Shown: in pieces, positions 41,836 through 51,532 of the stretch
Layout: each line of letters starts with the position of its first letter
How positions within the stretch are numbered: position 1 is the first letter of the stretch
Assembly: GCA_027366585.1 (NCBI GenBank)
Contig: DAHXNF010000010.1
Span: 62,001-126,000 of the forward strand
DNA from: Thermoplasmatales archaeon
GTDB lineage: Archaea > Thermoplasmatota > Thermoplasmata > Thermoplasmatales > Thermoplasmataceae
Length of the DNA stretch: 64,000 nt
Direction of reading: 5' to 3'
Translations under genes and position numbers: made by a program
The notes under the pieces: generated by a model
Database searches by the model: none
The model's input: only the letters and a program-made list of their open reading frames with translations
Told to the model about the DNA's origin: nothing

Positions 41836-42384
41836 TTAAGTCCCTACGTACAATAGATCACTTTGCAGTTCAGGAACTTCATAGGCAAGGCTATCATTAC
41901 TGAACTTATTGTTAGAAAGCATGGATAGTAGATAATATCCTGTAGGGGCAGGGATATAAGCAGGGCTTGAATATTTAGATGGATAAGTTCCATTGAACGT
42001 CAAGTCATACACTGACTCGTTCCACATGACTGAATCTGCCCGGAAAGAATTCGTAATACAATATGGGATTGTAACAAAAACCCGATGTGCAGCACTAATG
42101 TTGGAGCTGTTGGTACCGACATAAACTAGAGTAAGCCCCTGAAATTTCCCTGTATTGTTGAAGACAAACCGAGTTCTGGATGTATTCGGTCTTGCCGGAG
42201 CACAGAAGTGGAATTCTATGAAGCTGGTGCTGCCGTTATTACTGCTATTCCATGTAATGTTTACGGTAACTCCAAGGTGTGAATGATTCAGTGTTTCATA
42301 GTAATCGACAGTATATAAAATCAGGGAGAAAATGAGGATGAAGGTTACAATCAGGGCAAATATCTCTCTTCGCATTATTTTCAC
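41836..42384 (-). CDS. Membrane-anchored extracytoplasmic protein, sequon-rich
   Basis: Single N-terminal hydrophobic anchor, many N-X-S/T sites, Cys pair; part of ABC cluster. Confidence 0.6.
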   Translation of the reverse strand: MKIMRREIFALIVTFILIFSLILYTVDYYETLNHSHLGVTVNITWNSSNNGSTSFIEFHFCAPARPNTSRTRFVFNNTGKFQGLTLVYVGTNSSNISAAHRVFVTIPYCITNSFRADSVMWNESVYDLTFNGTYPSKYSSPAYIPAPTGYYLLSMLSNNKFSNDSLAYEVPELQSDLLYVGT

Positions 42385-42839
42385 TGTTCCTCTCGAGGCA
42401 TAGCATATGCCATCAGACTGAAGTTGTCGTTGCCCTGAGATTTGAACTCGATACTGTAGGCACCTTCTGTGTGATTATCTGTGCTTAGGGAGCATGTAAA
42501 AGAGTGAAAATCACCAGGTCCAGCTGTTGAAACTGCGCCGGGGCCAGAAGGTGTGTAGGTGCATACCTTAGTTGCATTATGTATGTTTCCTGACATTATA
42601 TACTCAATTCCAGCGATGTTTAAATTGATAGTAAGGTAATATTTTGCCAAAAAATTGTCCTTTTGCGTCAGTGTCACATTTTTTTCCAAAACGAGGAGTG
42701 ATGTACCAGGAATCGGTGGCGATATTGTCGTTGACCCGCTGCCTTTATTAGAATTACTCGTGTATATATAATAGGAGGACGAAACTATGATTGCCATTAT
42801 CACAGCAAAGACCAGTACAAGCTTCCTCCTTGATATCAT
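42381..42839 (-). CDS. Membrane-anchored extracytoplasmic protein
   Basis: MISRRKLVLVFAVIMAIIVSSSYYIYTS anchor; overlaps neighbours on both sides by 4 nt. Confidence 0.6.
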   Translation of the reverse strand: MISRRKLVLVFAVIMAIIVSSSYYIYTSNSNKGSGSTTISPPIPGTSLLVLEKNVTLTQKDNFLAKYYLTINLNIAGIEYIMSGNIHNATKVCTYTPSGPGAVSTAGPGDFHSFTCSLSTDNHTEGAYSIEFKSQGNDNFSLMAYAMPREEQ

Positions 42840-43816
42840 CTAGTCTTCACCCCAATGATGAAAAACAAAGCTAAGATGAAAACAGTTAAGATTAGGTATT
42901 CCAGGAGCATGGAAGAAAACGGCATTATTGCGTTAAGCGCGCTCACATGATAGGTGGCATAGTATTTGTAATTGGCAGAGCTGAACACCTCACCTGGCCT
43001 GACTCCTGAAGCTGCAACGTAAGGTTGCATGTTCGACAGGAACATAGCCATACCAAACATGTTTCCAGGGTTGATAAATTCTACAATATGATACAACTGA
43101 TTTAAGCTGCCATGTGCAATAGAAGATTGAAGGATCTGCGATATCAAGAACACTAAAAGGAACAGCGAAACGGAAACAGCAACCGAAGTTACCTTTTTTT
43201 TCGTTATTTCGCTGATAAGCAGACCCTCCAGCACAATAGAGAAAGACACAAATATTGCAACAAAATATTCAATATATATGTCGAGAGGAGAAAAAAACAA
43301 CCTGCCAATTATGTACATGGACGGGCCGGGTGAAGTGATTGTGGATTTGGCGTATACCGATATCAAGATCAATTCATATATTACAAGATGACCGCTTTCA
43401 GCTAGATATACACCGAAAATCACAAGAAAAGAAGCAAGGATAAGGATCATGGAAAAAGTAAACTGCCATAGAAGCTTCCCGGCCAACAGGCAAACTCGTT
43501 TCCGCTTGAATACAGAAATCATTTCCCAGCTGCCGGATTCCTTTTCCTCAGAGATAGCAATTGCTGGCGGGATCAGGATAACCAGATACAATAACGGAAA
43601 GGTAGACTGAAAAACTTGTCCTACAAAGTACTGGGCTAGTACGTATTTAGCGCCATTATAGTATTGAAGAAAAAACTGATCTATCGCCGTTAGCAGGGTC
43701 AGGATGCACGTGATCAGTAAGATAGCCAGGTAGAGAACTGACCTTAGACCTGTTCTGGCCTCTTTTCTGAATACTGCGGATATTGCTTTCCATCGTGAAC
43801 TGTAATCAACTTCCAT
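42836..43816 (-). CDS. ABC-2-type transporter permease
   Basis: About 6 TM segments; PPAIAISEEKESGSWEMISVFKRKRVCLLAGKLLWQ resembles the ABC-2 permease core; overlaps ATPase gene. Confidence 0.78.
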   Translation of the reverse strand: MEVDYSSRWKAISAVFRKEARTGLRSVLYLAILLITCILTLLTAIDQFFLQYYNGAKYVLAQYFVGQVFQSTFPLLYLVILIPPAIAISEEKESGSWEMISVFKRKRVCLLAGKLLWQFTFSMILILASFLVIFGVYLAESGHLVIYELILISVYAKSTITSPGPSMYIIGRLFFSPLDIYIEYFVAIFVSFSIVLEGLLISEITKKKVTSVAVSVSLFLLVFLISQILQSSIAHGSLNQLYHIVEFINPGNMFGMAMFLSNMQPYVAASGVRPGEVFSSANYKYYATYHVSALNAIMPFSSMLLEYLILTVFILALFFIIGVKTR

Positions 43817-44657
43817 ATTCTCTCCTGAAGGCTTCCTCCAAACTGGGTCTCCTGGCATATTTAACTTCCACACCCTGGTTGATCAATTTCCTCACGACTT
43901 CCTGGGGCTCATCCCCGCTGTCCACGTACAGGACAGCGCCATTCTCAATCCTACAGGAATAACCAATCTTTCCGCATGCCTCTATAGCTTCGCTCGTCGG
44001 AGATGATATCTCAATAATCATCATATTCAGCTGGTGAGTCCTTGGATCTTCAACCGCATTCCCGGAACGCATGAATATGATGTCATCGGCAATTTCCTGA
44101 ACCAGGGTCAAAACATGGGAACTTATCAGGAATACGATTCCAGTTCTTTTCAACTTTTTGATCAACGATGCAAGCTCAAATGATGATATTGGATCCAGCC
44201 CTTCGAATGGTTCATCCAGGCAAATAAAATTGGCGTCGGAAGACAGCACCATGGCTAGGTTCAACCTGCGCTTCTGCCCTTTCGAAAGTTTGTAGCCCAT
44301 TACTTTCTCTAGCTGGGAGATGCCAGTTAAGCTGAGATATTCCGTCACATTTCCCTTTCCACCTGAAAATTGAAGATAGAACTCAACGTTTTCTCTGCAC
44401 GTTAAATATGGGTAGATGGACGCATTCTCAGGCAGGTACGCAAATTTTCCTTCTCTCTTGATCGCTCCTGCACTTATTTTCTGCAATCCCAGAATCGCCC
44501 TGATGGTTGTTGTCTTTCCTGCACCATTTGCTCCAACAAGAGCAATGCACTTCCCTCCTTCATCTACAACAAGGGATAGACCCTTAACCGCTTCCTTTTT
44601 ATTCCTGATCCCATACTTAACACTTATTGATTCCATGTTCAGTATGTGTTTTGTCAC
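43806..44657 (-). CDS. ABC transporter ATP-binding protein
   Basis: GANGAGKTTTIRAILGL Walker A, KLSKGQKRRLNLAMVL signature, FICLDEPFEGLDP Walker B. Confidence 0.94.
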   Translation of the reverse strand: MTKHILNMESISVKYGIRNKKEAVKGLSLVVDEGGKCIALVGANGAGKTTTIRAILGLQKISAGAIKREGKFAYLPENASIYPYLTCRENVEFYLQFSGGKGNVTEYLSLTGISQLEKVMGYKLSKGQKRRLNLAMVLSSDANFICLDEPFEGLDPISSFELASLIKKLKRTGIVFLISSHVLTLVQEIADDIIFMRSGNAVEDPRTHQLNMMIIEISSPTSEAIEACGKIGYSCRIENGAVLYVDSGDEPQEVVRKLINQGVEVKYARRPSLEEAFRREYGS

Positions 44658-44684
44658 TTCACCATCCCCTCTTGTATTATTTTG

Positions 44685-45296
44685 TCACACTTCGATCTGA
44701 CTTACGCTCCCGGAATTGGATACAAAATATGCTATACGAGAAAATCCCTCGAAATAAAATGACGTCTGCAGTCCCTTCGCAGATTCGTAGTTTGTAGGAC
44801 CCCTCGTAATCATGTAATATCCTGCGATGTCTGGCAACTGTACAGTTGTACTGTACGATGGATTGGCATTATCCAGTTGAAAAGGGATTACCTTTGTACA
44901 ATTGCTGGGATTATTTATATCTGATAGATTCTGGCTATAAAAAAGACCAAGCCCTAACCCATTACTTTCAATAAAGTCAAATTTTGTAAGGAAATTAGTC
45001 TGGTTGATGATGGCTGTTATTGTCACCGCAACGATATCGCTATTGTTATTCTCCAGATTATCAACTATCTTAACCCCAATGGAATAACTAGAATGAATAT
45101 CTGTGTAATATACCAGATAGGAAAAAGAGGCAATGGCAGTAATTACTACTGCAGAAATAACTATTACGAAAAGTTTCTGCGATCTCTTTGATAGTGCCAT
45201 GTAATCCCCACAACCATTATGGCTTATAAAATATTTTGACAAACCAAATTTAAGAAATTCATTTAAAATAACTTCAGGAATTGCTAAACTGAACAT
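44685..45296 (-). CDS. Membrane-anchored extracytoplasmic protein, sequon-rich
   Basis: Anchor KLFVIVISAVVITAIASFSYLVYYT, several N-X-S/T sites, GYYMITRG motif; likely start MALSKRSQ. Confidence 0.55.
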   Translation of the reverse strand: MFSLAIPEVILNEFLKFGLSKYFISHNGCGDYMALSKRSQKLFVIVISAVVITAIASFSYLVYYTDIHSSYSIGVKIVDNLENNNSDIVAVTITAIINQTNFLTKFDFIESNGLGLGLFYSQNLSDINNPSNCTKVIPFQLDNANPSYSTTVQLPDIAGYYMITRGPTNYESAKGLQTSFYFEGFSRIAYFVSNSGSVSQIEV

Positions 45297-45540
45297 AAGA
45301 GTTCATATAAACATCATAATAGGAGGTAAAGATATAGTCGGAACTGTGAGCAAACTGACCCATTAAATAATAATAAATTCCTTCATATTGCCCGGAATTT
45401 CCTGGTACAGTTGCTGAAGTCTGCCATGAAGCTGAGTATGGCGTATTACCTGCAGCCTTCCCATTATCTGAGAAAACCCAACTTGTGTTATAAAGGCACA
45501 TATTCACAGGCTCGAGAGTAAAACACGGCACATCAAACAA
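45274..45540 (-). pseudogene. N-terminally truncated member of the exported-protein cluster
   Basis: In-frame sequence extends slightly upstream (FKLQVFSPILFDVPCF) but no anchor; upstream sequence is the degenerate element. Confidence 0.5.
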
Positions 45541-45569: not shown

Positions 45570-46010
45570 AGCAAAGTTGCAATGATTGAAGCAAACTTCG
45601 TGGGTCGTGCAAGGAATGGCGTTGTGATAGTAGTGGCAATGACACTGGTGATAACAAGCCGAGAGAGTGAATGCCACCGGGTATGGCGGCATGGAGGAAG
45701 AGAGGTCTCAGGACACTGCCTGAAAGAGGCTCTTCTGTCCTGCATAGGAATTCTAAGTTAATCTCAAATGCATGTGGTTCTCGGATCTAAAAGGCGAAGT
45801 GCATCTCAAACCGGAAGGGAAGGGGTGCATGATAGGCGGACACTATACTTGAAACCGAATGCTAGAAATGAGCCAGTACTGAGTTTTAGAGGACTTGGCG
45901 GAAACGGAACCTGAAAGGAGACGTGATGGGAAATCACGGTTCGGTCAGACCAGACTGGAAGCTGCGCTGCCATTCAACTTGGTGAAATAGTTTAGTTAGA
46001 ATTTAACACA
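45570..46010 (+). mobile_element. Degenerate element; 3' part resembles the 3' end of an IS200/IS605-type tnpB
   Basis: Frame reads ...NLKGDVMGNHGSVRPDWKLRCHSTW*, with hairpin CGTGAT-gggaA-ATCACG; no intact ORF. Confidence 0.4.
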
Positions 46011-46169: not shown

Positions 46170-46838
46170 TTGCTTGTTGCATTGATTGACCATGCGCTTA
46201 TCTACGAAAGTTTGCTGGGAAGGTTCGGCGATCTTCACTGGTGGCCTGCAGAAACCAGTGACGAGATACTGGTAGGTAGTATTCTTACACAGAATACCTC
46301 CTGGAAGAACGTTGAAAAGGCTATAGAGCAGTTGAAAGACGGCAACCTGATCTCGCTTGAGAGCATTGCAGATGCGAATGAAGAAGATCTTGCACAAAGA
46401 ATCAGGATCTCAGGTTTCTACAGGCAGAAGGCTGCCAGACTGCATTCGATATCAATGGAGATTGTTCACCGTCATGGATCGCTGGATAGAATGCGCTCCA
46501 TCGATACGGAAGAACTTATCGCTTTCTTTGGAGGTATGAAGGGGATCGGGAAGGAAACCCTTGACTCCATACTTTTATACATATTTGAAAGGCCTGTCAT
46601 GGTCATGGACTCGTATTCGAGGAGGATACTTTCCCGCGTTTCTTATCCGGAATACGCGGAGGATCATGCGATCCAGCAAGCTGCATTATCAGATCTGCAA
46701 TGTTCCGTTGATGCACTGAAAAACTATCACGCATGCCTTGTTGAACTTGGCAAGAACTATTGCAGAAAAACTCCTGAATGCGCGGAGTGCCCACTGAAAC
46801 ATGACTGTAACTACGCTATGGATTTGAGTTCCCCGTAG
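46170..46838 (+). CDS. Endonuclease III-family DNA glycosylase (HhH-GPD, 4Fe-4S)
   Basis: SILTQNTSWKNVEKAI, GMKGIGKETLDSILLYIF, VMDSYSRRIL, C-x6-C-x2-C-x5-C cluster (CRKTPECAECPLKHDC). Confidence 0.92.
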   Translation: MLVALIDHALIYESLLGRFGDLHWWPAETSDEILVGSILTQNTSWKNVEKAIEQLKDGNLISLESIADANEEDLAQRIRISGFYRQKAARLHSISMEIVHRHGSLDRMRSIDTEELIAFFGGMKGIGKETLDSILLYIFERPVMVMDSYSRRILSRVSYPEYAEDHAIQQAALSDLQCSVDALKNYHACLVELGKNYCRKTPECAECPLKHDCNYAMDLSSP

Positions 46839-48034
46839 CCGATGAGCCGCCACCTGTTTGAGATCCTTCTGCCAATTGCTACTCTTGCACCGACGTTGGC
46901 AGCCACCGGGTATCTGAGGCTGACCTCAATTTCATCGTCCCTTCCGGACGACACGACGGCAACTGTGTTTGCAGTTCCGACTGTAAGCATGAGGCTTTCC
47001 TTGCTCTTGATCGGCGTGATCGTCTGCTCCTCGGCAAAGCCAACCACTCTCTTAAGCAAGTGCGTCACTACAACCGCATCGGAAACGACTGGAGGAGCCT
47101 TTCCAACGTTACCAACGATCCTGCCCGTGAATGAATCATTCTTTGTAAGGAACGGATCAAGCTTTGTGCCAACGGCAGCCAGTCCACCAGGCCTGATCTT
47201 ATCAAGGCTGCTTGTTCCTGCCCTGAGGCTGGTTATCTCAGTTATCACATTCTCCCATGTCTGCTTGTTGCCCTTGGTAACCTGGATACCTGGAGAAATC
47301 TCGATCTCCTGCCCTGCACTCAGTTCACCTGTAACGAGGGAACCGCCAAGAACACCGCCAACCAGTTTTGCGGGGTTAGTTCCAGGTTTATTGACATCAA
47401 AGGATCTTGCTACATACATCATTGGATCATGGGATGGATCGAAAATCGGTGAAGGGATTCGTTCCTCTATTGCCTTGAGTAGAGAATCTATGTTCACATT
47501 ATGATATGCACTTACAGGTATAATGGGAGCATTTTCTGCGACGCTTCCTTTCAGGAATGACTTGATTTCGTTGTAGCTTTCTACTGCCTTCTCCCTTGTT
47601 ACAAGATCGATCTTGTTCTGAGCAACCACTATATTCTTGATCCCCATGATTTCCAGCGCTGTAAGATGTTCCCGTGTCTGGGGCTGTGGGCATTTCTCGT
47701 TTGCTGCAATGACAAGGAGCGCACCATTCATGATGGACGACCCGGCAAGCATTGTCGCCATGAGCGTCTCGTGTCCGGGGGCATCCACGATTGATATGGA
47801 TCTTGACTCTGTACACTTGCCCGATTCCGGGTTCCGGGAATAATATATTTCGTCACTCTCGTTCTTGCACTTATAAATCGTGACATCAGCGTATCCTAAC
47901 TTTATCGAGATTCCTCTCTTAATCTCCTCTGAGTGGGTATCGGTCTTTGTTCCCGTGAGTGCCTGAGTGAGTGTACTTTTGCCATGATCAACATGGCCAA
48001 CCATCCCGATGTTAACGCTTGGCTGGGAAACCAT
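46811..48034 (-). CDS. Translation initiation factor aIF2 gamma
   Basis: GHVDHGKSTLTQALTG, DAPGHETLMATML, QNKIDLV, archaeal eIF2G C-terminal domains. Confidence 0.96.
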   Translation of the reverse strand: MVSQPSVNIGMVGHVDHGKSTLTQALTGTKTDTHSEEIKRGISIKLGYADVTIYKCKNESDEIYYSRNPESGKCTESRSISIVDAPGHETLMATMLAGSSIMNGALLVIAANEKCPQPQTREHLTALEIMGIKNIVVAQNKIDLVTREKAVESYNEIKSFLKGSVAENAPIIPVSAYHNVNIDSLLKAIEERIPSPIFDPSHDPMMYVARSFDVNKPGTNPAKLVGGVLGGSLVTGELSAGQEIEISPGIQVTKGNKQTWENVITEITSLRAGTSSLDKIRPGGLAAVGTKLDPFLTKNDSFTGRIVGNVGKAPPVVSDAVVVTHLLKRVVGFAEEQTITPIKSKESLMLTVGTANTVAVVSSGRDDEIEVSLRYPVAANVGARVAIGRRISNRWRLIGYGELKSIA

Positions 48035-48420
48035 CAGTTGCTGACCTTTGCCTCTTCCCCTTCAAGAGGGTTAGGGCCATACTGGACAATCTTGAGATTG
48101 AGCTGGGAAATGTCTGTGCCGACGATGGCTCCGCGCACCGTTATGCGCTTCCTCTTTCCATCCTTGCCTGCCTTTCCTCTGGTGTATGTCTTCAGTATTC
48201 TCTTCTTTCCAGACAGCTGGAGATCAGATCTCATGGCGAATCCGTCAACAGAGGTGCCTCCAGTCAATTTAAGCCTGTATCCTGGAAGGTTAAAGAATAT
48301 CCCATCCAGTTCTTCTCCTATCTTTCTTCCTGCAAGTGATCCAAGATTCTCGGGAGAGACCTCTCTCTTATGCGTCTTCCCCGTCTTTGGGTCTGCAATT
48401 AGTGCTACTGCGTTTGCCAT
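48034..48420 (-). CDS. Ribosomal protein S6e
   Basis: GKTHKREVSPE...GRKIGEELDG...LKLTGGTSVDGFAMR...KRITVRGAIVG. Confidence 0.93.
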   Translation of the reverse strand: MANAVALIADPKTGKTHKREVSPENLGSLAGRKIGEELDGIFFNLPGYRLKLTGGTSVDGFAMRSDLQLSGKKRILKTYTRGKAGKDGKRKRITVRGAIVGTDISQLNLKIVQYGPNPLEGEEAKVSN

Positions 48421-48499
48421 TAATTTCACTCCTGATTTGTGTTTACCTTAAGGTTCCCTGTATTTTTCCTGAGTTAATAAATGATATGATATCTAATGA

Positions 48500-48575
48500 C
48501 AACTCGCTCCAAAGTACCAGCTGATCTAGACACACGAGTTGATAGGAAGATGCTTTACCACTAGATCACTGCTAC
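48500..48575 (-). other. tRNA-like 5'-half remnant / overlapping inverted repeats
   Basis: Minus strand GCAGTGATCTAGTGGTAAAGCATCTTCCTATCAACTCG resembles a tRNA D-arm to anticodon loop; no matching 3' half. Confidence 0.35.
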
Positions 48576-49775
48576 TATTCCAAGCATGATGATGAATGAG
48601 AGCGAAAACCAGTAGGCAGCCTTTAATTTCCTGCCACTCGTATATGGACCCATAATCTCCATTTTTCCCACCATGTAACCTAGAATCAGACCCGGGCCTA
48701 AAAGTATGAACACAAAGCCAACCAAAAGATCAAGCACAGCGTTAATCAGCATTGATCCTGGAAGAATCATTGCAGCAGCAGCACCAGGAATGCTCTCCAG
48801 AAGGTAAAAATAGAAAATCCTGTCCCTGCTAATGCCTATCGCCTCCGCGGTACCCCATGCGCTTCCTAGTGAGATAACAACCAATGCCAGAAAACCAGAA
48901 GCCGCCAGCCCAACACCAAAAAGCAGTGGCGCATAAGGGCCCGCAATGATCGAGAGCGAATTTGATATAGACTTTGCAGAGACTATCTTTGCGACCGGAA
49001 TGTTGCCTGCCATAACCATCTCGACTACGATCATCATAATCTCAGTAGCAATAGCGCCAATTAGGGTCTCAACCCGCATCAGCCTGACTGCAATGTGTTT
49101 CAGGTTTCCTCCATCCATGTATACTGAGGTGCCAGTGATGCTGGAATCGATGGATTTCATTTTGTGTGCTGTTGCGGAAGCCTGAAAAAATAGCATGAAT
49201 GGCATGATCACTGCCCCGGCATTTGCAGCCAAGATGAAGAGGTATGCGGTCGTTGGGTTAACGCTGAACATGCTGTAGTCTTGTACTCCCCTCACAAGCA
49301 GCGTGAGAATGAATGACGTTATGAGTATTCCAGAAATAAGAATCAGAACTTTTTCTGCATTTTTGTATTTTCCTCGCGCAACGATGGCGATGTGAATGAA
49401 GAATACGATCGGCACGGAAATGATCGGCGATATCCCCAGCACCGAAAGACCAACTGCGATACCTAGATACTCAATAGCGTAGGTGGCGATATCAGCCAGC
49501 GCCATCGGGAGTGTAAGAAGTAGGGCCAGCTTTCGACTGTATCTCTCCCGTATGTTTTCCCCGAGACCTTTTTCAGTCGCCACTCCAAGCCGGCCAGACA
49601 CTTCCTGCATTATGAAGAGAGGTATTATGAGCAACAGGAGGAACCATATCATGCTGTAATTGAAGAGTGCACCCGTCTCGGCTGCACCTATTGTACTGCT
49701 TGCATCCATATCTGCCATCATTACGATCCATGCAGGACCAAACAGCTGGAAAACTAATTTTTTACGGATGCGCAC
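48561..49775 (-). CDS. Nramp-family divalent metal transporter
   Basis: MMADMDASSTIGAAETGA and further TM segments characteristic of Nramp-like proteins. Confidence 0.82.
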   Translation of the reverse strand: MRIRKKLVFQLFGPAWIVMMADMDASSTIGAAETGALFNYSMIWFLLLLIIPLFIMQEVSGRLGVATEKGLGENIRERYSRKLALLLTLPMALADIATYAIEYLGIAVGLSVLGISPIISVPIVFFIHIAIVARGKYKNAEKVLILISGILITSFILTLLVRGVQDYSMFSVNPTTAYLFILAANAGAVIMPFMLFFQASATAHKMKSIDSSITGTSVYMDGGNLKHIAVRLMRVETLIGAIATEIMMIVVEMVMAGNIPVAKIVSAKSISNSLSIIAGPYAPLLFGVGLAASGFLALVVISLGSAWGTAEAIGISRDRIFYFYLLESIPGAAAAMILPGSMLINAVLDLLVGFVFILLGPGLILGYMVGKMEIMGPYTSGRKLKAAYWFSLSFIIMLGIVAVI

Positions 49776-49933
49776 AGACTTATAATTAGGCTAGCCTAAA
49801 TTAACATAAATCCATACATGTAATCCACAAGCCCTCCGGACCTGAAGCATTTTATAACCTTCTAACTGCCCGGTACTGCGCTGTCGATATATGATGCATG
49901 AAAGCAGTTTTATCCCCCTGATCATTTCACCTT

Positions 49934-51532
49934 GTGATTGTTCTAGGAATTGAGGGAACAGCCCATACGATAGGCGCAGGAATCGTGGACGGAAACAGGG
50001 TACTGTCCAGCGAGACCTCAACCTATCTGCCCGCCAAAGGTGGTATTCACCCAAGGGAAGCAGCAATCCACCATGCCGAGTTTGTAGCTCCAGTTATACA
50101 GAAGGCACTGGATGGCGCGGGCATCACGATGCGAAATGTGGATCTTGTAGCCTTTTCCATTGGCCCAGGGCTCGGGCCATGTCTCAGGGTCGCAGCTACA
50201 GCAGCGAGAACGCTTTCCCTCAGGCATAAGATACCAATAATTGGTGTAAATCACCCTCTGGGTCACATCGAGATTGGCAGGATGCTCTCTGGGGCTCAGG
50301 ATCCGGTTATGCTCTATGTATCCGGAGGGAATACACAGGTCATTGCACATATGCAGGGCAGGTACCGTGTATTCGGCGAAACGATAGACATCGGGCTAGG
50401 AAACATGCTGGACAAGATTGCAAGAGATCTTGGGTTTCCATTCCCAGGAGGACCGAGGATCGAGATTCTTGCAGCATCAGGACGCAAACTTCTTGATCTT
50501 CCGTACTCGGTGATGGGAATGGACACGTCGTTTTCGGGCATCTACACTGCAGCTAAGAGATATCTGGAGCTTGGAGAGTCCGTGGAGGACATATGCTTCA
50601 GCATGCAGGAAACGGCGTTTGCGATGCTCGTAGAGGTAACTGAAAGGGCGCTGGATTATCTTGGCAAGAGCGAGGTACTGCTTGCCGGCGGTGTTGCTAG
50701 GAACACGCGCCTTAGGGAAATGATTAGCAGCATGAGTGAGGAGAATGGCTGCCAAGCTTATCTGACGAATCCTGAGTACTGCATGGACAACGGTGCAATG
50801 ATCGCAAGAGCCGGGCAACTGATGTATGAGTCTGGGCAGAGACAGAAAATGGAAGATACAGCAGTGATACAGAGCTACAGGATAGACCAGGTTGAGGCGG
50901 ACTGGGTTGATTCAGTGAGCAGGCCCAGGCCAATGCAGGGGGCAGAAGCGATTATCAGTAGATCGAGATATTTCGGCAGGGATGCAGTCATGAAGAAACG
51001 TATTGGCAAAGGATACCGGAATCCAGGACTGGATTTCCGGATCAGGACAACAAGATTGAGGAATGAAGTCTCGGTAGCATGCAGGTTGCATGAACTCGGC
51101 GTAGACACTCCTGTTATCTATTCTGTAAGGCCTGAAGCGGGAGAAATAATCATGGCGAGACTCAACGGAAAGAGCCTGAGGGATGCAATCCTCTCGGGTG
51201 ACGGGAGCATCTCCATGATTGACAGCCTTGGTTTAATCGTTGCAGCGATGCATTCTAACCTGGTTGCGCATGGAGATCTTACAACTAGCAACCTGATGGT
51301 GGACAAACAGGGCCGCATATACTTCATTGACGCAAGCATGGGGAGTTTCCCTGCCGAGACCGAGGCGCTTTCACAGGATCTTTTCCTGCTGAAGGAGTCG
51401 CTCTCAAGCATGCATGGAGATCGGCCAGGTTTATGGCAGACGTTTCTTGAATCATACCGAAAGAGCCTTCCCGGATCCGATAAAATCATCTCCACTCTCC
51501 GAACAATTGAGGCGAGAAGGAGATATGTATGA
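49934..51532 (+). CDS. Kae1-Bud32 fusion (KEOPS tRNA t6A ATPase plus kinase)
   Basis: LGIEGTAHTIGAGI...HPREAAIHHA...VNHPLGHIEIGRM...YVSGGNTQV (Kae1), then HGDLTTSNLMV...YFIDASMGSF (Bud32); GTG start. Confidence 0.96.
   Translation: MIVLGIEGTAHTIGAGIVDGNRVLSSETSTYLPAKGGIHPREAAIHHAEFVAPVIQKALDGAGITMRNVDLVAFSIGPGLGPCLRVAATAARTLSLRHKIPIIGVNHPLGHIEIGRMLSGAQDPVMLYVSGGNTQVIAHMQGRYRVFGETIDIGLGNMLDKIARDLGFPFPGGPRIEILAASGRKLLDLPYSVMGMDTSFSGIYTAAKRYLELGESVEDICFSMQETAFAMLVEVTERALDYLGKSEVLLAGGVARNTRLREMISSMSEENGCQAYLTNPEYCMDNGAMIARAGQLMYESGQRQKMEDTAVIQSYRIDQVEADWVDSVSRPRPMQGAEAIISRSRYFGRDAVMKKRIGKGYRNPGLDFRIRTTRLRNEVSVACRLHELGVDTPVIYSVRPEAGEIIMARLNGKSLRDAILSGDGSISMIDSLGLIVAAMHSNLVAHGDLTTSNLMVDKQGRIYFIDASMGSFPAETEALSQDLFLLKESLSSMHGDRPGLWQTFLESYRKSLPGSDKIISTLRTIEARRRYV

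Follow-up and report, generated by a model that had tools for sequence, protein, structure and literature searches.

In lantibiotic systems, the surface protein LanI binds the lantibiotic and the transporter LanFEG expels it; the related Cpr operons (CprABC-type, in Gram-positive bacteria) exist without production genes (PMC5786555). Among archaea, the archaeocins (halocins, sulfolobicins) are secreted or surface-released proteins for which inhibition of closely related organisms has been proposed or demonstrated (sulfolobicins: PMC5733018). An ABC-2 ATPase and permease also work with exterior partners and an exported client in NosDFY-NosL copper-site assembly, and form the generic ABC-2 multidrug and lipid exporters (ABC_tran, ABC2_membrane_2). 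The archaeal operon described here has something in common with each of these.

The operon lies in a 64,000-nucleotide stretch of a Thermoplasmatales genome, which we call the window. The source archaeon belongs to the same GTDB family as Thermoplasma; two of its family-mates, G009 (Thermoplasma sp. FL) and G113, are named Thermoplasma MAGs of one genus (g5). A sequence-only reading had described one ATPase and one ABC-2 permease in a compact operon with three intact short proteins, each bearing a single N-terminal TM anchor, and a truncated fourth. The operon (45200-41836, minus strand) and the three anchored proteins are confirmed (Table 1), and the reported overlaps of 4-11 nt among most genes are real: the ATPase and permease genes overlap by 11 nt, permease and S2 by 4 and S2 and S3 by 4, and only S1 and the ATPase are separated, by 27 nt. 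Below, SP denotes a secreted protein, S and S' the S1/S3 family, and M the S2 family.

Table 1. Features of the window operon and of the DNA directly upstream (window positions).
Feature	Position	Strand	Description
SP remnant	45274..45540	minus	C-terminal, about 85 codons; alignment to G017 and G009 SP, profile match
TATA-like box	45222..45231	minus	read in sequence; ~28 nt 5' of S1 start
S1	44685..45200	minus	171 aa, one N-terminal TM anchor, S family
ATPase, ABC-2 type	43806..44657	minus	283 aa, GTG start; PF00005 76 bits
Permease, ABC-2 type	42836..43816	minus	six TM segments; PF12679 just under cut-off
S2	42381..42839	minus	152 aa, one N-terminal TM anchor, M family
S3 (S')	41836..42384	minus	182 aa, one N-terminal TM anchor, second S-family member, 10 sequons

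The S1 start was corrected to the ATG at 45200; the start called mechanically at 45296 lies too far upstream, because a TATA-like box (tttataag) precedes that ATG. Judged from the position of this predicted promoter, the operon transcript is probably leaderless. No regulator gene adjoining the operon is encoded in the window. The ATPase matches PF00005 at 76.2 bits (cut-off 25), with Walker A/B and signature motifs read in the sequence (GANGAGKTT, LSKGQKRR, FICLDEP); the permease has six hydrophobic segments and scores 27.0 bits against PF12679 (cut-off 27.2). An ABC ATPase domain with its motifs and a six-helix permease together make an ABC-2 exporter, and the permease profile has matches in relatives, adjoining S. 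The nearest solved structures for the ATPase are multidrug, lipid and NosF ATPases, the best being the multidrug efflux ATPase Rv1218c (E 1.1e-26), with NosF at 1.3e-23; a PDB search with the permease profile gave no meaningful match, and PADLOC returned generic ATPase matches only. The pair is thus of the same broad kind as the generic multidrug and lipid exporters; unlike them, it stands in a fixed association with SP, S and M, which, so far as we have checked, is not described for such exporters.

How close does this come to LanI and LanFEG? As in those systems and in CprABC, an anchored surface protein and a six-helix ABC-2 exporter stand beside a secreted product, and producer-less versions exist. 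The operon does not belong to LanFEG, because ATPase score, permease number and anchor type all fail: the ATPase reaches 104.1 bits against TIGR03740, far under the cut-off of 309.75; the window and its relatives encode one permease gene where LanFEG has two (E and G); and S1, S2 and S3 have a TM anchor whereas LanI is a lipoprotein. SP, S and M show no homology to the lantibiotic components, and SP is a large Sec-type protein, unlike a lantibiotic, which is a modified peptide. By analogy, the cassette could still work as LanI/LanFEG does, a likeness of function that we consider evenly balanced.

The N-terminal TM segments of S1, S2 and S3 lack a lipobox cysteine. The sequence-only reading recognised no family among the small proteins, and none emerges now: none of the three reaches a cut-off in Pfam or NCBIfam or has a match in PADLOC, and these libraries give no confident solute-binding or pilin-like match. 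Against the PDB, the best match of the S profile has E 0.24; one pilin appears at 0.5, in a match that includes the TM helix. An AlphaFold model of the window S3 (5-row alignment) has a mean pLDDT of 48, with only the TM helix confident. The idea that the small proteins are diverged paralogs stands for S1 and S3: directly compared, they reach E 0.08-0.3 only, but the G009 S protein bridges them, matching S1 at 4.6e-11 and S3 at 1.8e-16, and S3 is 33.5% identical to its G017 counterpart (E 1.9e-29). It falls for S2, a member of the other family, M: hhalign gives 89% against the S profiles, in a match made up mostly of the anchor and the stretch after it, and S2 relatives occupy the same place in other cassettes. 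Of the motifs said to be shared, YY after the anchor occurs in all three proteins and GYY in S1 and S3, while S2 has only G-x-Y. A search of public genome contigs with S, whose conserved stretches are short, found matches in three named MAGs only. One weak S1 match, in G035 (L022 6454-6957), is a DUF4382 protein (PF14321, E 1.3e-22), from a separate anchored-protein family that has mainly its N-terminal part in common with S1. Export of S1, S2, S3 or M by the ABC unit is unlikely, because their own N-terminal anchors should suffice for Sec insertion.

The supposed fourth paralog proved to be something else. It aligns to the C-terminal third of SP, a protein of 255-329 aa in relatives that has a signal-peptide-like N-terminus and is separate from the S family; a profile built from only two relatives' SP finds the window ORF at E 3.3e-7, its sole match in the window's genome. 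None of the N-terminal two thirds is left near the remnant. Pfam, NCBIfam, PADLOC and the PDB contain nothing that meaningfully matches SP, S or M, AlphaFold yielded no usable model for G009 SP (3-row alignment, mean pLDDT 34, again confident in the TM helix only), and no SP was found in the viral contigs searched. A distant homology of SP and S is not supported, the profile match being restricted to the hydrophobic N-terminus; a group I intron match inside the remnant (21.5 bits, gathering score 50) was taken as chance. Just upstream of the remnant, some 260 bp of non-coding DNA (45633-45890) have a copy elsewhere in the genome (G000:C55:6946-7206, 73% identical) and, over a shorter length, a counterpart in G022 (71%); this repeat may be the relic of a putative mobile element tied to the truncation.

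In relatives, the whole unit is SP - S - ATPase - permease - M (- S'). G017 has the same five genes as the window, in the same order, behind an intact SP of about 270-285 aa, and G009 has SP, then S, ATPase, permease and an S2-like gene. The arrangement, in many cases closed by a second S, recurs in G096, G059, G062, G065 and G032 (two copies), and likewise in G024, G090, G091 and G016 (519 kb); the fifth protein of the G016 copy, 177 aa long, escapes the M profile. M is also not recognised in the G082 cassette, which has S', and not detected in G084; the G011 cassette is fragmented by assembly, and the G009 ATPase, interrupted by a run of N, was not counted as broken. About 15 copies with an intact SP directly upstream of S are scattered over the Thermoplasmatales, and hardly any locus with a present or former SP lacks M. 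The small ORFs are therefore conserved in relatives: the gene order recurs in many genera, more than chance would give. This conservation, together with the lack of a family match for SP, S and M, supports the earlier suggestion of an undescribed system that combines an exporter with sequon-rich surface proteins. A TATA-like element precedes SP in most cassettes and another lies directly behind SP, before S, in several, so the SP half and the half from S onward could be regulated apart.

Most of the genomes are MAGs, 60-99% complete, which makes the absence counts soft, and gene calls in relatives are mechanical; with these limits, whole-genome searches of 117 genomes from the order find S in 22, which represent 14 of 33 genera, and narrow profiles find SP in 9 and the permease in 10 of the same 117. 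Broader profiles applied to 400 genomes of the class detect S in 32 and SP in 19, SP almost entirely within the order; across the phylum, 8 of 293 sampled genomes have SP. Several SP loci, two or three in some genomes, occur in G016, G032, G096 and G044. The complete genome of G016 has three such loci in three states: complete at 519 kb (L175), decayed at 937 kb (L015) and solitary at 1858 kb (L174). The rule that SP never occurs without a transporter was rejected on account of solitary SP-like genes at G016 1858 kb, G087 and G044 862 kb. At the last of these (L171 5093-6447), an intact SP-like gene is followed only by an S-like fragment (144 aa, single-TM), with no ABC genes, while the other G044 copy, at 643 kb, has a broken SP. 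In both the window (46811-51532) and G017 (L017 3690-11905), the cassette lies near genes that, by our reading of their sequences, we take to encode Kae1-Bud32, ribosomal protein S6e and eIF2-gamma. The order of the genes is rearranged locally, a hint of either vertical descent accompanied by such rearrangement or an insertion region common to both.

The window is not alone in having lost SP. The gene is broken at five loci: in the window, in G112/G113, at 937 kb in G016, in the second G096 copy (an internal TGA) and at 643 kb in G044 (split between frames). S, ATPase and permease are intact at four of the five; the exception is G016, where the ATPase is also truncated, a later stage of decay. 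In the Thermoplasma MAGs G112 and G113, SP alone has been removed, by an in-frame deletion of 666 nt bounded by two ATATGAC repeats: both sides of the deletion align to G009 at 85-94%, and what is left of SP is 43 codons, with CTG where G009 has its TTG start. Between G112 and G113, dN/dS is 0.35 for S, 0.33 for the ATPase, 0.27 for the permease and 0.05 for M, values that come from one pair of MAGs at low divergence; at 0.05-0.35, the remaining genes appear still to be under purifying selection in Thermoplasma after the loss of SP. The remnants do not share a starting point in SP (about 194, 207 and 242 in the coordinates of the first profile), so at least three of the losses were independent.

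SP and the anchored proteins also differ in their sequons (N-X-S/T). The sequon-rich exteriors noted earlier are borne out for S3 alone (10 against 3.2 expected, with 0 of 1000 shuffles as high) and for S/S' and M as families, but not for S1 and S2 singly (4 each, not significant). Over the cassettes, S/S' ectodomains hold 168 sequons where composition predicts 66, and M holds 54 where it predicts 23, numbers that 0 of 1000 shuffles reach in either case; SP has 21 for an expected 43, and no shuffle is as low. S and M thus carry about 2.5 times the expected sequons and SP about half. A reversed-motif control gives 168 vs 66 for S/S', 54 vs 32 for M and 21 vs 39 for SP (SP P 0.03); the SP deficit is real but moderate. 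The simplest reading of these sequences would be that S and M reside permanently on a glycosylated surface, while SP passes the same machinery and is kept glycan-free.

What would such a cassette do? The set of a secreted protein, anchored proteins and a pump, its patchy multi-copy spread, the sequon contrast, and the specific loss of SP with the rest kept lead us to propose, with a probability of roughly one half, that SP is a Sec-secreted antagonist and that S, M and the ABC pump confer self-immunity, which would make the window an immunity-only locus. SP would have a promoter of its own and leave the cell through Sec by means of its N-terminal signal peptide; once released, it would inhibit cassette-free related archaea, with their membrane as the probable site of action. 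At the producer's surface, the sequon-rich, anchored S, S' and M would intercept SP, and the ATPase and ABC-2 permease would clear the membrane of SP or of a membrane-bound form of it. The window would retain the immunity half alone, SP having been lost. LanI with LanFEG and the producer-less Cpr operons are the case in which this logic is known from experiment (PMC5786555). What speaks against SP as a weapon is that it resembles none of the known toxins, that a few SP-like genes lack a neighbouring transporter, and that the S-ATPase-permease core is also found without SP in G004, in G021 and outside the order.

The same gene neighbourhood could instead serve SP. S, M and the ABC-2 complex might fold, load or release an SP with a housekeeping role, the ABC-2 complex transmitting force in the way that has been proposed for NosDFY; the cassette, like NosDFY-NosL, has an ABC-2 ATPase and permease, exterior partners and an exported client. 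The place of SP directly upstream of S in some 15 cassettes, the near-constant presence of M where SP is or was, and the similarity of the ATPase to NosF all fit. Nevertheless, searches of Pfam and NCBIfam with SP, S and M bring up neither NosD nor NosL, and ABC genes are missing beside some of the SP-like genes. A dedicated machine should decay with its client, yet, unlike the NosDFY-NosL case, S, ATPase, permease and M outlast the deletion of SP and are apparently kept under purifying selection. We consider this explanation unlikely.

If the genes outlive SP, could SP be an optional extra? G004 and G021 have the S-ATPase-permease core but no SP, and in other families of the class (L135-L142) both SP and M are missing from it. 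Because of the latter, the core looks older, SP and M having presumably joined it in the Thermoplasmatales; its occurrence without SP in G004, in G021 and outside the order also means that it serves, or once served, another purpose. Variants are seen as well: in G275, outside the order (L140 4919-8570), S-like proteins of ~295 aa flank ATPase and permease on both sides, with no SP, and in two members of the window's genus, G004 and G003 (L018 7332-9917 and L019), the order is swapped, a 281-aa single-TM protein, whose N-terminal part matches S1 weakly, being followed by the permease and then the ATPase. The core might move a lipid, a glycan or some small molecule, which S and M would accept on the exterior, and the nearest solved ABC-2 ATPases do move drugs, phospholipids and LPS. 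A core envelope function, however, is ill-matched by patchiness, multiple copies and an identity of only ~25-35% between genera of one family, and the two fully assembled genomes of the genus Thermoplasma, G027 and G111, lack S; this possibility, too, seems improbable to us. Least probable is an operon that senses or expels neighbours' peptides or drugs and is merely often co-inherited with SP: the Rv1218c similarity and the retention of the operon without SP suit it, but SP directly before S in ~15 diverged cassettes is too regular for chance co-inheritance, and no regulator adjoins the operon in the window.

A secreted antagonist with a self-immunity operon would bring SP close to the archaeocins. 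Like halocins and sulfolobicins, SP is putatively secreted, to judge by its signal-peptide-like N-terminus; in the libraries covered (Pfam, NCBIfam, PADLOC and the PDB) it matches no family, and no such ABC immunity operon is described in the Sulfolobus and halophile cases examined. Tentatively, and with somewhat less confidence than in the antagonist itself, we suggest a new archaeal antagonistic class: a Sec-secreted toxin of a new family and an immunity complex of two kinds of sequon-rich, anchored interceptor and an ABC-2 pump, distributed across the Thermoplasmatales in producer, immune-only and empty states. In the literature, we found no toxin family or immunity operon for the Thermoplasmatales; this search did not take in a 2019 survey of conflict systems in archaea, and these families may have been mentioned before. 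That survey, by Makarova and co-workers in mBio, reportedly covers predicted systems.

Little is known about competition among wall-less acidophilic archaea. If SP is an archaeocin, the Thermoplasmatales gain a putative family of toxins together with the immunity operon to match, and the idea is directly testable because Thermoplasma genomes that are close relatives occur naturally as producer, immune-only and empty. The contrast between sequon-rich anchored and sequon-poor secreted proteins may help to find similar pairs. Even if SP is no weapon, three families (SP, S and M) are defined, and a conserved cassette can now be annotated.
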